Part shown: positions 1-39,535 of the stretch, piece after piece
How positions within the stretch are numbered: the stretch's first letter is position 1
Layout: each line of letters opens with the position of its first letter
Origin: a bacterium
GTDB lineage: Bacteria > Pseudomonadota > Gammaproteobacteria > Methylococcales > Methylomonadaceae
DNA: 43,191 nucleotides
Assembly: GCA_030591965.1 (NCBI GenBank)
Contig: JAUVAA010000006.1
Coordinates: forward strand, 1 to 43,191
Direction: 5' to 3'
The notes under the pieces: model-generated
The model's input: only the letters and a program-made list of their open reading frames with translations
What the model was told of the DNA's origin: nothing
Databases searched by the model: none
Position numbers and translations under genes: made by a program

Positions 1-145
1 AAGTCTTCTACTGGCATGATGGCTCTCCGATAAGTTACTTTTCGTAAAAAATAACTGTACGCTTGAGTTATCATGCCTTCAACTTTTTATCAGTTCAGCT
101 TAAAATTAAAGTCGAACATGGCGTAACTATTGGTTCAAAATAAAT

Positions 146-1054
146 ATGGATAATAAAAAATCGCCCACAAAGTTGGCGAAAGCTCATTGGAGTGATATTT
201 TTTTAGAATATTTTTTTCGCTTTGCAGCCAGTGGAAAAATACCTGCCAACTGGTTTTTGCCTACAGTTCCTTCCGGCTCTGAGAAAGCATCTAATTCAGG
301 TCATTTAAGTTTAGAGCTTGTAAGTCATTGCTGGAACTATGCTTATTTATTGGATTACCAATTAAGCTCTTTAGTAAATTATCCACCTACTAAACTTGAC
401 CTTACTGTCACTATTTTTTACTCAGCTGAAGATGAGAAGACAGTGGCAATGCTAGATTTTTTTGGCAAAAAGGAAGTTACTAACGTTACTTGGAACTGGC
501 AAGAACTACCTAAAGAAATGTTATTCAGGCGTAGTATAGGTCGCAATAAAGCAGCACTTGCCACTAAAGCAGACTGGATTTGGTTTACTGATTGTGACCT
601 TGTCTTTCATGAGCAGTGCTTAGATAGCTTGGCAGATGCAGTACAAGGCAGAAAAGATGCATTACTATACCCTCAGACTGAACATATCACCACCTTATTA
701 GCTGAAGACGACCCTATCCTAGTAAAGGGAGCGGAACCCCAGTTATTAGATATTGACACCAACACATTCAGTGTTATGAAGGTTAATCGTGCAACAGGTC
801 CATTACAAATAACCCATGGCGATGTAGCTCGCTCCTGTGGTTATTGTAATAGTATTAGTATTTATCAAAAACCTGCGAAACACTGGTGTAAAGCCTATGA
901 AGACCGGGCTTTTCGCTGGTTACTTCGTAGCCAAGGGGTTGGCATTGATATACCTAGTGTTTTTCGAATCCAACATTTATTCAAAGGGCGTTATAAAGAG
1001 GGTACTCTAAACTCGGCAATTCGCCGACAGATTAAGCGCCTTAAAAGTATTTAG
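146..1054 (+). CDS. Putative glycosyltransferase (GT-A/family 2-like)
   Basis: 302-aa ORF; 'ADWIWFTDCDLVF' resembles a GT-A DxD context; 'RNKAALATKADWIWFTDCD' pattern. Confidence 0.65.
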   Translation: MDNKKSPTKLAKAHWSDIFLEYFFRFAASGKIPANWFLPTVPSGSEKASNSGHLSLELVSHCWNYAYLLDYQLSSLVNYPPTKLDLTVTIFYSAEDEKTVAMLDFFGKKEVTNVTWNWQELPKEMLFRRSIGRNKAALATKADWIWFTDCDLVFHEQCLDSLADAVQGRKDALLYPQTEHITTLLAEDDPILVKGAEPQLLDIDTNTFSVMKVNRATGPLQITHGDVARSCGYCNSISIYQKPAKHWCKAYEDRAFRWLLRSQGVGIDIPSVFRIQHLFKGRYKEGTLNSAIRRQIKRLKSI

Positions 1055-1240
1055 CGCAATAAATTTCCCTTGTCTAATTCATTATTTTCCTAGTTAAGCC
1101 AAGTATAGCGCTACCCAACCGACACATGTATTAGACTTCGATTCCTTGGAAGCAAGGTGTCTCTATCGACAAACAATGCTCGGTATTGAGAAAAGACATA
1201 AGATAACGCATCAATAACCGAACACAGTCTCTTTAATTCA

Positions 1241-2764
1241 ATGACCCTAAAATACATAGAAAAAATATTACGCGCTAAAGTTTACGATGTTGCTGAAGAA
1301 AGTCCTTTGGATTTTGCTCCGGTCTTATCTGAGCGTATTAATAATCAGGTTTTTTTAAAGCGTGAAGATTTGCAGCCAGTTTTTTCTTTCAAATTACGGG
1401 GTGCTTATAACAAAATTGCCTCATTAACTGAACAAGAAAAAAGTCACGGCGTGATTGCTGCATCAGCGGGAAATCATGCGCAAGGCGTGGCTTTATCGGC
1501 TAAAAAACTAGGCATCAAGGCTTTAATTGTTATGCCTAAAACTACGCCTGAAATTAAAGTGAATTCGGTGCGTGCTCGTGGGGCAAAAGTTGTTTTATTT
1601 GGTGATGCTTTTGATGATGCTTATACGCATGCCAAAACAATAGCGAAAGAAAACAAGATGACCTTTGTGCATCCGTACGATGATCCGGAGGTCATTGCTG
1701 GACAAGGCACTGTGGCGATGGAAATTTTACGCCAAAAAACGGATGCTATTGAAGCGATTTTTGTCCCTGTCGGTGGTGGTGGTTTAATTGCAGGCATTGC
1801 GGCTTATGCAAAATTTGTCCGGCCTGAGATTAAAATTATTGGCGTTGAGCCTGATGATTCTAATTGCTTACAACAAGCATTAAAAGCCCATAAGCGAGTA
1901 ACACTAAAACAGGTTGGCTTGTTTGCTGATGGGGTCGCGGTAAGGCAGATTGGTAAAGAGCCGTTTCGTTTGGCTAGAAATTTAGTCGATGAAGTAATTA
2001 CTGTTAATACTGACGAGATTTGTGCTGCGATTAAAGATATTTTTGATGATACGCGTTCCGTACCCGAGCCTGCTGGCGCGTTGGCAATTGCAGGACTAAA
2101 GAAATATGTTGAACGAGAAAAGATTTGCGATAAAGCTTTAGTGGCAATAGAAAGTGGTGCCAATATTAATTTTGACCGCTTACGCTATGTTGCTGAGCGT
2201 GCGCAAGTGGGAGAGCATAGAGAAATTTTATTGGCGGTAAATATTCCTGAGCAGCCAGGTAGTTTTTTAACCTTCTGTAAACTCTTAGGTAAGCGCAGCA
2301 TTACTGAATTTAATTACCGTTACTTTGATGGCAGTAGCGCACAGATATTTGTCGGTATCACCAGTAGTGGTGATATAAATGATAAAGTTGAAATCATTGG
2401 TCAGTTAGAAGATAAAGGCTTTACCGTCACGGATATGACTCAAAATGAGCTAGCAAAAGAGCATATCCGCTATATGGTAGGTGGTCACGCGCCTTGCGAG
2501 TTAAATGAAATCATTTATAGCTTACAGTTCCCTGAGCGCCCAGGTGCTTTATTGCGCTTTTTAACTTCTTTAGGTAGCCAGTGGAATATCAGTTTATTTC
2601 ATTATCGTAATCACGGCTCAGCGTTTGGTAAGGTATTGATTGGCGTACAAATTGAAGCATCGCAAAAGGTAGCCGTGCAGTTATGCTTCGACGCTTTAGG
2701 ATTTCGTTATATAGAAGAAACCAAGAACCCAGCGTATCAATTATTTAGTGGTGGGAGGGGTTAA
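1241..2764 (+). CDS. ilvA: Threonine ammonia-lyase, biosynthetic (PLP domain plus C-terminal ACT-like repeats)
   Basis: 507 aa; 'SFKLRGAYNKIA' PLP-lysine motif, 'AASAGNHAQGVALSA', 'VPVGGGGLIAGIA'; C-terminal regulatory repeats (EQPGSFLTF..., ERPGALLRFL...). Confidence 0.95.
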   Translation: MTLKYIEKILRAKVYDVAEESPLDFAPVLSERINNQVFLKREDLQPVFSFKLRGAYNKIASLTEQEKSHGVIAASAGNHAQGVALSAKKLGIKALIVMPKTTPEIKVNSVRARGAKVVLFGDAFDDAYTHAKTIAKENKMTFVHPYDDPEVIAGQGTVAMEILRQKTDAIEAIFVPVGGGGLIAGIAAYAKFVRPEIKIIGVEPDDSNCLQQALKAHKRVTLKQVGLFADGVAVRQIGKEPFRLARNLVDEVITVNTDEICAAIKDIFDDTRSVPEPAGALAIAGLKKYVEREKICDKALVAIESGANINFDRLRYVAERAQVGEHREILLAVNIPEQPGSFLTFCKLLGKRSITEFNYRYFDGSSAQIFVGITSSGDINDKVEIIGQLEDKGFTVTDMTQNELAKEHIRYMVGGHAPCELNEIIYSLQFPERPGALLRFLTSLGSQWNISLFHYRNHGSAFGKVLIGVQIEASQKVAVQLCFDALGFRYIEETKNPAYQLFSGGRG

Positions 2765-29734: not shown

Positions 29735-31390
29735 ATGTATCAATATACCGATAAAGATCAAACAATTATTGATGAACGCGTCACCCAGTTTCGTGATCAA
29801 ACTGAGCGTTTTTTAAAAGGTGAAATTCCTGATGACAAATACCGTGCATTACGTTTAATGAATGGTGTTTATGTCCAAACTCATGCGCCACTATTACGTG
29901 TTGCTGGTCCTTATGGCTTGTTGTCTAGCGATCAAGTCAGAAAATTAGCGTCTATTGCGCGTGATTACGATAAAGGCTACTGCCATTTTACGACCCGTCA
30001 AAATATCCAATTTAACTGGCCCGCACTCGAAAGAGTGCCTGATATTCTTGAAGAATTAGCAAGCGTACAAATGCATGCCATTCAAACAAGTGGTAACTGC
30101 CTTAGAAATACAACCTCTGATCAGTTGGCCGGTGTTTGTAAAGATGAAATAGAAGATCCACGCCCTTATTGCGAAATTATTCGTCAATGGACTATTTTGC
30201 ACCCTGAGTTTGCTTATTTGCCACGTAAATTTAAAATTGCGGTTAGTGGTGCAAAACTTGATCGCGCAGCGACACAATTCCATGATATTGGCTTGCATTT
30301 AGTTGAAAATGAGCAAGGTGTCGTTGGTTTTAAAGTATTTGTTGGTGGCGGTTTAGGTCGTACTCCTGTGATTGGCCAAATGATTAAGCCTTTTCTGGAA
30401 AAAGAGCATCTACTCTCTTATTTAGAAGCTATCGTGCGAGTCTACAACTTAAATGGGCGTCGTGATAATAAATATAAAGCGCGCATTAAAATCTTAGTAA
30501 GAGAAACTGGCCTAGCTGCATTTAGCGAGCAAGTTGATGCTGAATGGGGTTTAATTAAAGATCAACTGGCTATTCCAGCGGAGCATATTACTGCAATGCA
30601 AGCTCAGTTTGCATTGCCTGTTTACCAGGCAGGTGCAGCACAAGATACCTGTTATGCCGAACATTTAGCTAAAGATAGTCGCTTTGCAACTTGGGTTAAG
30701 CATAATACGGTTGAGCATAAAATAGACGGCTATCGTGCTGTTTATATTTCTTTAAAAGCGCCAGATAGTCCGCCAGGAGATTGCACCGATGTTCAGCTTG
30801 ATGCAATTGCCGGTTTAGCGGATGATTACAGCTTTGGTATGGTACGGACAACACACCGTCAAAACTTAGTTTTAGCGGATATTAAACAAGCGGATTTATT
30901 TGTCTTGTGGCAAAAGCTAGAAAGCTTAAAACTAGCAACGCCCAATATTGGTAAAGCAACAGATATCATTTGTTGCCCTGGTTTAGATTACTGCGGATTA
31001 GCACTGGCTGGTTCAATTGGCGTTGCTAAAGAGATCAACGAAAGTTTGGACTCGATTGATTATGTACATGATTTAGGCGATATAAAAATCAATATTTCTG
31101 GCTGTATGAATGGTTGTGCGCATCAAAGTGTGGGTCATATCGGCATTTTAGGTCTGGATAAGAAGGGTGAGGAATGGTACCAAGTCACATTAGGTGGCTC
31201 ATCAGAAAATGATGCGGCTATTGGTGATCGTTTAGGGCCTTCTGTGAGCAAAGAAGAGATTACACCTGTAGTCGTAAAGCTACTGGAAGTTTACCTAGAG
31301 CAACGTCTTAATGAAGACGAAGCTTTTCTGGCAACTTACCGACGTGTTGGCATGAATCCATTTAAGGAGAGAGTCTATGCAACTCATTAA
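29735..31390 (+). CDS. Nitrite/sulfite reductase, siroheme-4Fe4S (probably assimilatory sulfite reductase)
   Basis: 551 aa; 'DIICCPGLDYCGLA...INISGCMNGCAHQSVGHIGILGLDKKGEEWYQVTLGG'. Confidence 0.93.
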   Translation: MYQYTDKDQTIIDERVTQFRDQTERFLKGEIPDDKYRALRLMNGVYVQTHAPLLRVAGPYGLLSSDQVRKLASIARDYDKGYCHFTTRQNIQFNWPALERVPDILEELASVQMHAIQTSGNCLRNTTSDQLAGVCKDEIEDPRPYCEIIRQWTILHPEFAYLPRKFKIAVSGAKLDRAATQFHDIGLHLVENEQGVVGFKVFVGGGLGRTPVIGQMIKPFLEKEHLLSYLEAIVRVYNLNGRRDNKYKARIKILVRETGLAAFSEQVDAEWGLIKDQLAIPAEHITAMQAQFALPVYQAGAAQDTCYAEHLAKDSRFATWVKHNTVEHKIDGYRAVYISLKAPDSPPGDCTDVQLDAIAGLADDYSFGMVRTTHRQNLVLADIKQADLFVLWQKLESLKLATPNIGKATDIICCPGLDYCGLALAGSIGVAKEINESLDSIDYVHDLGDIKINISGCMNGCAHQSVGHIGILGLDKKGEEWYQVTLGGSSENDAAIGDRLGPSVSKEEITPVVVKLLEVYLEQRLNEDEAFLATYRRVGMNPFKERVYATH

Positions 31391-31829
31391 AGACAAACAA
31401 GTGACTCAAGATAGCTGGGCATTTATCGCTGATGATGCGCCACTGAATGCAGATTTTAATATTGTTTCACAAGCTCGCTGGCGCAAAGAAGGGGTTGATC
31501 TTATCAATCGAAAAGATGCTCTGGGTTTGCGTCTAGAGTCTGGTGCGGTAGTTGAAGAGATTGTTGCTGACTTAAAGCATTTTCAGCTTATTGAACTACA
31601 TATTCCCGTTTTTACTGATGGGCGTGCCTTTACGCATGCGCGATTATTGCGTAGTCGTTTTGATTTTACCGGTGATATTCGCGTTAGTGGTGATTTTATG
31701 CGCGATCAGGTATTTTATCTGAGCCGTGTTGGGGTAAGTAGTTTCGAGTTAAATGATCAAGATAGTGCGCTGGAAGTCATTGCTTCTATGGATGATTTTT
31801 CTGTTCAGTATCAAGATTCTGTCGCGTAA
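31377..31829 (+). CDS. DUF934 family protein
   Basis: 150 aa; overlaps the 3' end of the sulfite reductase; 'FTDGRAFTHARLLRSRFDFTGDIRVSGDFMRDQVFYLSRVGVSSFEL'. Confidence 0.9.
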   Translation: MQLIKDKQVTQDSWAFIADDAPLNADFNIVSQARWRKEGVDLINRKDALGLRLESGAVVEEIVADLKHFQLIELHIPVFTDGRAFTHARLLRSRFDFTGDIRVSGDFMRDQVFYLSRVGVSSFELNDQDSALEVIASMDDFSVQYQDSVA

Positions 31830-32763: not shown

Positions 32764-34080
32764 TTACCTGAAAATGGCAATACCTTTTAATAGGTTAAGT
32801 GCTTCGTTTAGTGGGTAATCACGAATATCGACACCCTTCTCATCTTCTGGTTTTTCTGTTTTCTTGTCTGCTTTTTTATCGCTTTTCTTTTTATTGCCAT
32901 TCTCTAAGTGGCCAGATAAGTCAGCTTCTTTAACAGGTTGGAACTTTGCCGCTTCTAGTGCTTCTAATTTAAGGCGATCAAGCGCTATATCTGGCTCTAT
33001 ACCTGTTGCTTGAATGGAGCGTCCAGATGGCGTGAAATAGCGTGCAGTAGTAATTTTTACCGCCCCGCCATTACCGGTAGGTAAGATTGTTTGTACTGAA
33101 CCCTTACCAAAAGACTTAGTGCCCATAATAATGGCGCGTTTATGATCTTGTAATGCACCAGCGACAATCTCAGAAGCGGACGCAGATCCAGCGTTAATTA
33201 AAATAACTAACGGTGCGCCATCCAGTTCATCACCAGGGCTAGCATTAAAGTCCATTTGCGAATTTTTAATCCGTCCTTCTGTATAGACAATTTTACCTGA
33301 ATTTAAAAAGGTATCGCTGACCGAAACTGCGCCGTCTAAAACGCCGCCAGGATTATTACGTAAATCGAGTACCATGCCTTTTAATGCGCCGCCATTCGCT
33401 GTTTTAAGTTCTTGGATCGCTTTTTTAACGGCAGCACCGGTCGGTGATTGAAAACTGCTAATGCGTACATAACCAAAGCCATCTTCTAGGGTACGGCTGC
33501 GCACGCTTTTTACTTTAATAATATCTCGAGTTAAGGTTACGTTAAAAGGTGCATTCTTACTTTTACGTACTATAGTTAATATTATGTCGCTACCCACTTC
33601 GCCGCGCATTATTTTAACGGCTTCGGTCAGAGTCATGCCTTTTACCGGCTTTTCGTCTAGTTTTATAATTAGATCGCCTGACTGAATGCCAGCGCGTTGT
33701 GCGGGCGTTTCATCTATAGGTGAAATGACTTTAACAAAGCCATCTTCCATCGTTACTTGGATGCCTAAGCCACCAAAGCGGCCAGTAGTACCAACTTTTA
33801 GCTCTTGGTATTCTTCAGTATCTAAATAGCTAGAGTGTGGGTCTAAGCCGACTAACATGCCACGGATCGCATTTTCCAATAAATCTTTATCGGAAACTTC
33901 TTCAACATAATCTTGTTTGATGCGTCCGAAAATCTCGGTAAATGTTCTCAGTTCTTCAAAAGGTAAAGTAACTGCTTGCGGCTCAGCATCTTTATCTGCG
34001 AGTACTGTGCCAGCAGTCGAAAGAAAGATGCCTAGAAAACAGCCTATAAATAATATAAAAATATTTTTTTTATTAACCAC
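32764..34080 (-). CDS. ctpA: S41 family C-terminal processing peptidase
   Basis: 438 aa; PDZ 'GRFGGLGIQVTMEDGFVKVISPIDETPAQRAGIQSGDLIIKLD', 'VLDLRNNPGGVLDGAVSVSDTF', 'LINAGSASASEIVAGALQD...GTKSFGKGSVQT'. Confidence 0.95.
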   Translation of the reverse strand: MVNKKNIFILFIGCFLGIFLSTAGTVLADKDAEPQAVTLPFEELRTFTEIFGRIKQDYVEEVSDKDLLENAIRGMLVGLDPHSSYLDTEEYQELKVGTTGRFGGLGIQVTMEDGFVKVISPIDETPAQRAGIQSGDLIIKLDEKPVKGMTLTEAVKIMRGEVGSDIILTIVRKSKNAPFNVTLTRDIIKVKSVRSRTLEDGFGYVRISSFQSPTGAAVKKAIQELKTANGGALKGMVLDLRNNPGGVLDGAVSVSDTFLNSGKIVYTEGRIKNSQMDFNASPGDELDGAPLVILINAGSASASEIVAGALQDHKRAIIMGTKSFGKGSVQTILPTGNGGAVKITTARYFTPSGRSIQATGIEPDIALDRLKLEALEAAKFQPVKEADLSGHLENGNKKKSDKKADKKTEKPEDEKGVDIRDYPLNEALNLLKGIAIFR

Positions 34081-35369: not shown

Positions 35370-36902
35370 TTAATTAAGTAGCGATTTTCCGTTCATTTCA
35401 ACCGGTTGTTCTATGCCTAAAATAGCCAGCATCGTCGGCGCTAAATCTTTCAAACTTCCTCCGTCAGCTAAAGCTCTTCTGCCACCAACATAAACTAAAG
35501 GTACGGGGTTGGTTGTATGAGCCGTTTGCGGGCCATTTTGAGCGTCACGCATTTGTTCAATATTGCCGTGATCAGCGGTTAGCAGCATTTGTCCGCCCAC
35601 TTTTTCTAAGGCAGTGACGATGCTCGCAAGTGCGCCGTCTATGGTTTCTACCGCTTTAAGTGCTGCTTCCCATTTGCCCGTATGGCCGACCATATCGCAG
35701 TTGGCATAATTACAGATAATCACATCATATTTTTGTTCAGTAATCGCATTTACTAGATGTTCGGTTACTTGGGCGGCATGCATTTCTGGCTGTAAGTCAT
35801 AGGTTTTTACTTTAGGTGAGGGTACTAAAATGCGGTCTTCACCGGTATTAGGCTGATCAACGCCACCGTTCATAAAAAAAGTGACATGTGCATATTTTTC
35901 CGTTTCTGCTAAACGCAGTTGTAATAACCCTTGTTGCGCTAATACTTCACCTAAGCTATTTTTTATTTCCGCCGAGGCGTAAGCAACTGGATAAGTAAAT
36001 TTTTCATGATATTCAGTTAAGGTGACATAAACACCTTGATGGCCAGCATGTCCGCGCTCAAAGCCTAGGAAATCTACATCAGTAATCGCTTGGCTGATCT
36101 CCCTTGCACGGTCGGCGCGAAAGTTCATAAACACAACGGAGTCGTTTACAGCTAAAGTCGTTGCTTTACCTTGAACGTCAAGGATAACGGTCGGCTCAAC
36201 AAACTCATCATTTTCATCGCGCTGGTAACTGGCTTGTAATGCTTCAATTGCTGAGGTCTCAGTGTACTCTCCTTGGCCTAGAACAATCAGTTTATGAGCT
36301 TTTTGTACGCGATCCCAGCGGTTGTCACGGTCCATCGCGTAAAAGCGACCAATAATTGAGGCAATACGGCCGACACCGAGCTGGTTTATCTTGTCTTGTA
36401 GGTTTTTTAGGGCGGTCTCTGCACTTTTTGGGGCAACATCACGACCATCTAAAATAGCGTGAATGACAATCTTTTTTAAACCTTTTTGGGCGGCAAGTTC
36501 CAGCAGGGCTAGAATATGGCTGATATGACTATGCACGCCGCCTTCTGACAATAGGCCAAGAATATGCAAAGTGCTGTTGTTCGTTAATGCGTTATCAACG
36601 GCTGAGCATAAGGCTGGATTAGTAAAAAAACTGCCATTTTCAATAGCGTCGCTGACGCGAGAAAAGTTTTGTGGCACGTAGCGGCCTGTGCCTATATGCA
36701 TATGTCCGACTTCTGAATTGCCCATTTGTTGGTCAGGTAAGCCAACAATACGGCCAGAACAGTCGAGTTGGGTCATCGGAAAATTCTTTTGTAAATTATC
36801 CCAGCAAGGCGTGTTGGCCTGAGCAATTGCGTTATACTCAGTTTCTGTACTCAGGCCGAAGCCATCGAGAATTAATAATACGAGAGGTTTTGGTTTTGTC
36901 AT
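35370..36902 (-). CDS. gpmI: 2,3-bisphosphoglycerate-independent phosphoglycerate mutase
   Basis: 510 aa; 'LVLLILDGFGLS', 'QMGNSEVGHMHIGTGR', 'HAILDGRDVAPKSA', 'TADHGNIEQM'. Confidence 0.97.
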   Translation of the reverse strand: MTKPKPLVLLILDGFGLSTETEYNAIAQANTPCWDNLQKNFPMTQLDCSGRIVGLPDQQMGNSEVGHMHIGTGRYVPQNFSRVSDAIENGSFFTNPALCSAVDNALTNNSTLHILGLLSEGGVHSHISHILALLELAAQKGLKKIVIHAILDGRDVAPKSAETALKNLQDKINQLGVGRIASIIGRFYAMDRDNRWDRVQKAHKLIVLGQGEYTETSAIEALQASYQRDENDEFVEPTVILDVQGKATTLAVNDSVVFMNFRADRAREISQAITDVDFLGFERGHAGHQGVYVTLTEYHEKFTYPVAYASAEIKNSLGEVLAQQGLLQLRLAETEKYAHVTFFMNGGVDQPNTGEDRILVPSPKVKTYDLQPEMHAAQVTEHLVNAITEQKYDVIICNYANCDMVGHTGKWEAALKAVETIDGALASIVTALEKVGGQMLLTADHGNIEQMRDAQNGPQTAHTTNPVPLVYVGGRRALADGGSLKDLAPTMLAILGIEQPVEMNGKSLLN

Positions 36903-37033
36903 TTTAATCTCCGCAGGAACCTAAATTAAGTGCAAATAATTTATCTTGTGTCTAAAATAGGTTGTTTTTAGTAGGGTAATATATCTTTGTTACGAATAAT
37001 AATCATTGCTAAATAGGATTGATTTTGCTATTG

Positions 37034-37055
37034 TTAGAGTTTTCTAATGTATAAT
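37034..37055 (+). promoter_or_regulatory. Candidate promoter/operator of the ArsR gene: TATAAT preceded by a TTAGAgtttTCTAA dyad
   Basis: Dyad 37034-37047; TATAAT 37050-37055; no convincing -35 at canonical spacing. Confidence 0.35.
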
Positions 37056-37148: not shown

Positions 37149-37466
37149 ATGGAAACTATAGATAACCATAACATATACGACGACGCCGATATAGAACGGG
37201 CGGCTCGGTGCTTAAAAGCAATGTCACACCCGCTACGCTTAAAAATTCTTTGTGTCCTAGGGACTGAAGCGATTAGTGTACAAGATATTGTGGAAAAAGT
37301 TGGAACCAGTCAAAGTAATATTTCACAGCATCTCTCTATTTTAAGAGAAAAAGATATTTTAAGCTTTAAAAAAGATGCAAACCGCGTATTCTACTATATA
37401 GATGACCCGCGCATGCTTAAGCTTATTGAAATGATGCGTGAGATTTTTTGTCATCAATGCAACTAA
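37149..37466 (+). CDS. ArsR/SmtB-family repressor with Cys35/Cys101 arrangement of SqrR/BigR-type persulfide sensors
   Basis: 105 aa; 'AMSHPLRLKILCVLGTEAISVQDIVEKVGTSQSNISQHLSILREKDILSFKKDANRVFYYI'; Cys at 21, 35, 101, 104. Confidence 0.92.
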   Translation: METIDNHNIYDDADIERAARCLKAMSHPLRLKILCVLGTEAISVQDIVEKVGTSQSNISQHLSILREKDILSFKKDANRVFYYIDDPRMLKLIEMMREIFCHQCN

Positions 37467-37589: not shown

Positions 37590-38024
37590 ATGATAGACCA
37601 ATATATCGAATTTGCTTCCAGCCATTGGATGCTTGTTACTGCCTTTTTCGCGGTTACTTTTTTCTTGATTCAAGATATTGTTGAATCCGGTATGCGTAAG
37701 TATCAAACTATTTCTCCAATGTTGACGGTGACTAAGTTAAACTCTGGAAATCCGATTATTGTGGATGTACGTGAAGCCAATGAGTTTAAAAAAGGACATA
37801 TCGCGGATGCTATTCTTATTCCTCTTGCCAGCATAGAAAAGCAACTTAAAAAAATCGAGTTATATAAAAAAGACGATGTTATTGTTGTTTGTCATACCGG
37901 CGCGCGCTCTGGTTCAGCTTGTGCAACACTAACTAAACTAGGCTTTGAAAATATTTTCTTGATGACAGGTGGCATGCAATCTTGGGAAGAAAATAAACTT
38001 CCGATTGTCACTAGCAAAAAATAA
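37590..38024 (+). CDS. Membrane-anchored rhodanese-like protein (YibN-like)
   Basis: 144 aa; N-terminal TM; 'IVDVREANEFKKGHIADAILIPLASI', active-site loop 'VVCHTGARSGSACATL'. Confidence 0.93.
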   Translation: MIDQYIEFASSHWMLVTAFFAVTFFLIQDIVESGMRKYQTISPMLTVTKLNSGNPIIVDVREANEFKKGHIADAILIPLASIEKQLKKIELYKKDDVIVVCHTGARSGSACATLTKLGFENIFLMTGGMQSWEENKLPIVTSKK

Positions 38025-38057: not shown

Positions 38058-38525
38058 ATGGCTGAAGAAAAACAAGCACAAGAAAAGCAATTTTCCATCC
38101 AAAAAATTTATACCAAAGATATTTCTTTTGAATCTCCTGCATCACCACAACTGTTTACAGAAAAGTGGGAGCCTGCTGTAGATTTTAATTTAGCTACCAA
38201 CGCTACACCATTAGAAGACTCAATGTTTGAAGTGTCTCTTACTGTGACAGTTACGGTAAAAACAGGGGAAACAGTTGCTTACTTAGTTGAAGCAACGCAA
38301 GCAGGTATCTTTTCTTTAGCGGGCTTTACTGAAGCTGAAATGGGGCCTATGGTAGGCAGTTTCTGTCCTAATATTTTATTCCCTTATGTACGTGAAGTCG
38401 TTTCAGATTTAGTGGCTAAAGGTGGCTTTCCGCAATTATTATTAGCTCCTGTTAATTTTGATGCTTTATATGCGCAACATTTGCAGCAAGCTCAACAAGC
38501 AGAAGGCTCTAAAACTTTAAATTAA
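38058..38525 (+). CDS. secB: Protein-export chaperone SecB
   Basis: 155 aa; 'FSIQKIYTKDISFESPASPQLF', 'QAGIFSLAGF', 'CPNILFPYVREVVSDLVAKGGFPQLLLAPVNFDALY'. Confidence 0.97.
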   Translation: MAEEKQAQEKQFSIQKIYTKDISFESPASPQLFTEKWEPAVDFNLATNATPLEDSMFEVSLTVTVTVKTGETVAYLVEATQAGIFSLAGFTEAEMGPMVGSFCPNILFPYVREVVSDLVAKGGFPQLLLAPVNFDALYAQHLQQAQQAEGSKTLN

Positions 38526-38533
38526 TAATCAAT

Positions 38534-39535
38534 ATGACCAGCAAAATTAGCATTTTTGGTGCCGGATCTTGGGGTACCGCATTAGCCATTCAAGCTGCTA
38601 GAAATGGTAATCAAACGATGCTTTGGGGGCACCACCCCAAACATATTCAAAATTTGGCGCGAGATAGACAAAATAAACGTTATCTTGCTGGTTTGTCTTT
38701 CCCTGATTCACTACAGGTCACTGATGATCTAAAATTAGCTGCGCAATTTAGCGACATTATTTTAATATCAGTACCGAGTCACGCCTTTAAAGAAACACTG
38801 CTTAAAATAAAGCCATTTGTGTCTAAGAATGTCAAAATTGCTTGGGCAACCAAAGGTTTTAATCCAGAAACGGGTGAATTACTGCATCAGACGGTGGCTA
38901 ATGTATTCTCTCCCGAAACACCGGCGGCAATCTTATCAGGGCCTTCTTTTGCTAAAGAAGTCGCTGCAGATTTACCAACGGCGGTGACCATTGCCTCAAC
39001 TCAACAAGCCTTTTCTGATGAACTTGCCGCGTTGATGCACAGTCCTCGTTTTCGCACTTATACAACGACTGATATTATCAGCGTTCAAGTCGGTGGCGCA
39101 GTCAAAAATGTCCTTGCAATTGCCGCAGGTATTGCTGACGGCATAGGTTTTGGTGCAAATACTCGAGCGGCTTTAGTGACACGTGGTATTGCTGAAATTA
39201 TTCGCCTTAATACCGCTTTAGGCGGGCAGCAAGAAACCTTAATGGGTTTGTCGGGGTTAGGGGATTTAATTCTGACGTGTACTGATAACCAATCACGCAA
39301 CCGGCGTTTTGGATTGGCTTTAGGCCAAGGTAAAAATAAAGAGCAAGCAATACAAGAAATTGGTCAGGAAGTAGAGGGTATCTCTGCGGCAAGAGAAACT
39401 TATATGTTAGCCAAGAAACATGGTATCGATATGCCGATTACTGAGCAAACTCATCACGTATTGTATGATGGTCTCGCACCTTTAAGTGCGGTACAAAATT
39501 TATTGCAGCGTGATCAGAAGTCGGAAACTGAGTAG
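38534..39535 (+). CDS. gpsA: NAD(P)-dependent glycerol-3-phosphate dehydrogenase
   Basis: 333 aa; 'ISIFGAGSWGTALAIQAARNGNQTMLWGH', 'AILSGPSFAKEVAADLPTAVTIAS', 'GGAVKNVLAIAAGIADGIGFGANTRAALVTRG'. Confidence 0.97.
   Translation: MTSKISIFGAGSWGTALAIQAARNGNQTMLWGHHPKHIQNLARDRQNKRYLAGLSFPDSLQVTDDLKLAAQFSDIILISVPSHAFKETLLKIKPFVSKNVKIAWATKGFNPETGELLHQTVANVFSPETPAAILSGPSFAKEVAADLPTAVTIASTQQAFSDELAALMHSPRFRTYTTTDIISVQVGGAVKNVLAIAAGIADGIGFGANTRAALVTRGIAEIIRLNTALGGQQETLMGLSGLGDLILTCTDNQSRNRRFGLALGQGKNKEQAIQEIGQEVEGISAARETYMLAKKHGIDMPITEQTHHVLYDGLAPLSAVQNLLQRDQKSETE

Follow-up and report, generated by a model that had tools for sequence, protein, structure and literature searches.

An ArsR repressor of the persulfide-sensor group and a YibN-type rhodanese share a conserved gpmI/secB-gpsA locus in Gammaproteobacteria

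The window analyzed here is a 43,191-nucleotide stretch of a Methylomonadaceae genome (GenBank assembly GCA_030591965.1, contig JAUVAA010000006.1, positions 1 to 43,191). This genome falls in a clade of methanotrophic Bathymodiolus symbionts, and its closest named match is 96% identical. The order at the locus of interest is divergent gpmI / arsR-rhodanese-secB-gpsA, with the following features:

35370..36902, minus strand: gpmI, phosphoglycerate mutase, transcribed divergently and flanking the conserved block
37006..37034, plus strand: promoter-like TTGCTA-N17-TATTGT with an extended -10 (TGC at 37026-37028), overlapping the dyad below; predicted from sequence
37032..37049, no strand assigned: candidate operator dyad TGTTAG-AGTTTT-CTAATG, matching 10/12 positions of TATTAG-N6-CTAATA
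37149..37466, plus strand: arsR, ArsR-family repressor of 105 amino acids with an ATG start (open reading frame and Pfam)
37590..38024, plus strand: YibN-type membrane-anchored rhodanese with the loop C-H-T-G-A-R-S (catalytic Cys101, codon 37890-37892)
38058..38525, plus strand: secB, export chaperone, within the conserved block
38534..39535, plus strand: gpsA, glycerol-3-phosphate dehydrogenase, within the conserved block

Two further regions of the window were noted. At 29735-31829 (plus strand), about 5 kb from arsR, are a sulfite/nitrite-reductase hemoprotein and a DUF934 protein, probably for sulfite assimilation. At 33051-33363 (plus strand), a match to Rfam RF02800 (Rickettsia sRNA47) is barely over the gathering score (60.7 versus 60) and lies antisense within an S41 protease gene, where the model is possibly tracking coding sequence.

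The window ArsR has cysteines at positions 21, 35, 101, and 104, and its reading frame confirmed the original prediction that C35 and C101 are separated by 66 residues, the spacing found in SqrR and BigR. Pfam HTH_5 (40.5 bits against a cutoff of 22) identifies a winged helix of the ArsR type. When PDB chains were searched with phmmer, YgaV, BigR, and HlyU ranked at the top, NolR and SqrR came next, and metal sensors ranked far lower. Among NCBIfam models, only the broad HTH_metalloreg (ArsR/SmtB) exceeded its cutoff; the BigR equivalog NF040642 scored 69.7 bits against a cutoff of 155. An AlphaFold model (pLDDT 86) contains helices at residues 12-25, 28-37, 44-51, 55-67, and 87-100 and a beta wing, and its best Foldseek matches were NolR, HlyU, YgaV, SqrR, and BigR. 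In this model C101 is the residue just after α5 (87-100), and C35, which had been assigned to the recognition fold, instead lies within α2 (28-37), the recognition helix being residues 55-67. In the alignment, the α3 region reads SVQ rather than CxC, α5 lacks both SmtB histidines, and there is no SmtB-type ligand set.

We placed the protein in a tree of 31 rows, which carries a long-branch warning. A 94/97 branch divided this tree, and all ArsR orthologues formed a single clade (97/96) on the RSS-sensor side, with YgaV and HlyU as nearest neighbors (93/87). There was no clustering with metal sensors, as SmtB, CzrA, and NmtR fell outside that side, together with the arsenic-type ArsR of the same genome. 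Thus, by sequence, fold, and tree, the window ArsR groups with the persulfide sensors YgaV, HlyU, BigR, and SqrR, apart from metal sensors. The closest of these by sequence and tree, E. coli YgaV (37% identity) and Vibrio HlyU (33-34%), share the Cys pair but differ in their operons and targets. SqrR of Rhodobacter capsulatus (PDB 6o8k; 30% identity) likewise has the ArsR fold and α2/α5 cysteines 66 residues apart, although it comes from another class and another locus. Xylella BigR (PDB 3pqj; 32% identity) has an equal dithiol spacing, and its operon holds a sulfurtransferase/dioxygenase (PMC5823870). Such a Cys pair characterizes the RSS cluster (SSN cluster 4) of the ArsR superfamily network (PMC10509353). 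The window ArsR and its relatives are a new orthologue group within a known kind of sensor, not a new kind. No second ArsR of the persulfide-sensor kind was found in the same genome; the other ArsR match there (L001/L243, C49) is a CVC arsenic-type sensor, upstream of GAPDH-like and MFS-like genes in an arsenic-resistance layout.

Conservation of the cysteines was counted in two sets of orthologues. C35 was present in 110/110 and C101 in 109/110 rows from relatives and named genome contigs, and in a separate class sample with nearly one genome per family the counts were 60/60 and 59/60. C21 varied (58/110 and 0/60), as did C104 (23/110 and 1/60), with a CxxC seen in part of the window's genus in the 110-row set. 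The conservation of the C35/C101 pair exceeds chance, whereas a redox or metal-binding role proposed for the extra C104, as a CxxC with C101, was dropped because C104 is not conserved. Two orthologues, L088 and L184 (G367), have Val in place of C101 and are natural variants that could test this cysteine's role.

To place the locus in a wider setting, we compared relatives' loci with loci from 80 named genome contigs, some genomes being in both sets. Methylococcales have gpmI / arsR-rhodanese-secB-gpsA, usually with ctpA and envC. The same order, sometimes without gpmI, occurs in Chromatiales, Thiotrichales, and other Gammaproteobacteria, and at that depth identity is approximately 64 to 78% for ArsR and mostly 28 to 45% for the rhodanese. 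An ArsR orthologue (E about 1e-25 or better) was found in 185 of 377 class genomes, about half, by a hand-tabulated count. One orthologue (L052) is that of the culturable Methylomonas koyamae. In the class sample, the rhodanese stood beside ArsR in 56 of 60 orthologues, nearly all from different families. The arsR gene had been described as inserted between gpmI and the rhodanese block; because the arrangement recurs across many orders, insertion was ruled out and arsR is instead an ancient resident. There was no association to suggest that grxC takes the place of arsR in the operon (28/53 versus 19/49; p 0.17). Between arsR and the rhodanese gene lie a median of 57 nt across loci and 123 nt in the window, so cotranscription is likely from the gene spacing. 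In one genome of the same family (G018), the ArsR reading frame is interrupted by an internal TGA (C12:106258-106497). The open papers that we searched gave no account of the locus, and none of them joined yibN with ArsR, or ArsR with rhodanese, secB, and gpsA.

The neighboring enzyme was confirmed as membrane anchored, as had been predicted, with one N-terminal hydrophobic helix followed by a rhodanese domain (Pfam Rhodanese, 75.9 bits). It shares 28% identity with E. coli YibN (E 4e-21) and fits the YibN type at the secB locus in its membrane helix, its domain, and the adjoining secB-gpsA. E. coli, however, has no ArsR at this locus (gpmM / yibN-grxC-secB-gpsA), and its YibN reads V-D-G-S-G-M-Q-C, a degenerate kind with Asp at the catalytic place, unlike the canonical C-H-T-G-A-R-S of the window enzyme. 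One report remarks on the Asp and places the loop Cys of YibN on the opposite side (PMC12282094).

Using secB-linked rhodaneses from genomes without ArsR as the comparison set, we found the canonical CxxGxR loop in 52/56 genomes with ArsR versus 5/49 without (p 5e-19). For the bare catalytic Cys, the counts were 54/56 and 36/49. In the first locus set, which was rich in Chromatiales, the loop Arg was often Gln and the Cys was kept. When fitted on a SecB tree, a model in which ArsR and loop evolve dependently beat the independent model (LR 65.3, p 2e-13), with only a rough count of changes because the tree comes from a single short protein. Twenty-five independent pairs discordant for ArsR split 22:0 with 3 ties (p 5e-7). 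Thus, the canonical loop is co-retained with ArsR, and where ArsR is absent, the usual active site is mostly lost; secB and gpsA persist where ArsR is gone.

Upstream of arsR, an unsupervised motif search recovered TTATTGTATAATGTTTTnCTAATA-like elements in most of 60 regions, with a log-likelihood of 368 versus 78 in shuffled sequence. Palindrome-constrained models were rejected, as they scored below an asymmetric element. Perfect dyad forms upstream of arsR across the class read TATTAG-N6-CTAATA, and a spacing of 6 stood out most (mean of 8.80 versus 7.69 ± 0.05 in shuffled sequence). Five congeners carry an exact TTTAAG-NGTTTT-CTAATR at the same spot and nowhere else in their genomes. Taken by itself, the window dyad does not exceed chance (4 matches versus 4.9 expected). 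When TDTTAGN6CTAATR was searched in the window's own genome, 7 matches were obtained versus 4 in the control; an exact-motif regulon is thus mostly chance, and only the arsR and sqr promoters were convincing.

At the second of these promoters, the dyad TTTTAG-AGAATG-CTAATA lies inside TTGATC-N17-TAATAT, between a divergent transporter-like gene and an open reading frame whose product matches the 3sz0 group at E 5e-152 and is a true sulfide:quinone oxidoreductase. It is conserved at 27 Methylococcales sqr loci, where N6 was by far the best spacing (9.96 versus 8.09 ± 0.10), and it is absent in some relatives that have ArsR (G024, G046, and G060). Class-wide, a minority of sqr genes have the dyad, with no difference by ArsR status (Mann-Whitney p 0.85), which rules it out as a class-wide mark of this ArsR and suggests that the TATTAG-N6-CTAATA operator is probably common to SqrR/BigR-like repressors. 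Three genomes without this ArsR orthologue (G399, G111, and G230; loci L317, L286, and L314) have perfect or near-perfect TATTAG-N6-CTAATA at sqr and carry weaker ArsR homologues, so the operator may serve related repressors. The G018 genome has no dyad upstream of sqr (L273). In locus L247, a large RND-like membrane protein (about 1-1428, minus strand) faces sqr across the dyad; RND-type pumps have been named as targets of sulfane-sulfur ArsR repressors (PMC12423496). The hand-tabulated ArsR counts were also compared with sqr in the 377 class genomes: 108 had both, 14 had sqr only, 77 had ArsR only, and 178 had neither (OR 17.8, p 5e-28). The tree showed this co-occurrence as well (LR 34), in a fit whose rates reached their bounds.

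Three other explanations of the protein were weighed. A general thiol redox switch would have peroxide or disulfide stress join C35 and C101 in a plain disulfide, with the rhodanese part of an oxidative response. Cysteine pairs react with several oxidants, and the dithiol H2O2 sensor RexT belongs to the same superfamily (PMC10509353, PMC8960804), but RexT has proximal cysteines and sits in a different network cluster (PMC10509353). Furthermore, neither H2O2 nor GSSG reacts with HlyU, which has the same Cys pair as the window protein, but persulfides do (PMC10509353). Retention of ArsR alongside both a sulfurtransferase loop and sqr points to sulfur. We consider this switch unlikely.

Somewhat less probable still is a housekeeping role, in which the protein represses the yibN-secB-gpsA envelope block and answers to no sulfur signal, like ArsR proteins without an inducer site. 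Such a role leaves unexplained both the near-invariance of C35 and C101 and the loss of the rhodanese loop in genomes that lack ArsR and keep secB and gpsA, although the block does encode export and lipid functions, NolR was among the top fold matches, and E. coli YibN is described as working with YidC (PMC12282094). A metal or metalloid sensor using C35, C101, and C104 or a cryptic site is very improbable, since the superfamily membership, the lone HTH_metalloreg match, and the CxxC in part of the genus are set against an unconserved C104, the missing α3 CxC and SmtB-type α5 ligands, and metal sensors that lie outside its part of the tree.

The window ArsR very probably senses reactive sulfur through C35 and C101. 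The reading that we favor, and judge likely, is that it responds to persulfide through its dithiol and represses arsR-rhodanese and, in Methylococcales, probably sqr. The original prediction, in which the protein senses reactive sulfur in the manner of SqrR and BigR and is linked to the rhodanese, thus gains computed support from the grouping, the conservation of C35 and C101, the co-retention of the loop, and the dyad shared with sqr in Methylococcales. A putative ArsR dimer, in its reduced form, would bind the TATTAG-N6-CTAATA-like dyad over its own promoter and hold arsR and the downstream rhodanese low, perhaps with repression reading on into secB-gpsA; in Methylococcales, it would probably repress sqr as well. 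As sulfane sulfur rises, a short polysulfide bridge, C35-Sn-C101, would form within one protomer, and the bridged ArsR would release DNA so that the rhodanese and SQR are made and handle sulfur. That the switch is such a bridge is likely by analogy with SqrR, HlyU, and SoxR (PMC9995734, PMC10509353, PMC10451225); for HlyU, a tetrasulfide, which adds 62 Da, has been reported. In R. capsulatus, SqrR controls sqr and a rhodanese, and losing each enzyme shifts the response oppositely (PMC9995734); these match the target pair predicted for the window ArsR.

What appears to be new here is that arsR has a fixed locus across the class and is retained together with an intact active site of the YibN type. 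A broader and more doubtful proposal, which we offer only tentatively, is an ancient class-wide sulfane-sulfur circuit in which a dithiol ArsR and a competent YibN rhodanese would be a sensor-effector pair at the entry to secB-gpsA, so that membrane-protein insertion and export would be coupled to cellular persulfide; YibN of E. coli would then be a relic left after loss of the sensor and of the active-site Cys. The testable answer given by the data is that the rhodanese keeps its canonical loop when its gene is guarded by a persulfide-sensor-like ArsR, and that the loop decays in genomes without that ArsR. From the favored reading one would also expect sqr in methanotrophs, including the Bathymodiolus gill symbionts, to be switched by sulfur, and the persulfide-sensor family gains a widespread orthologue group.
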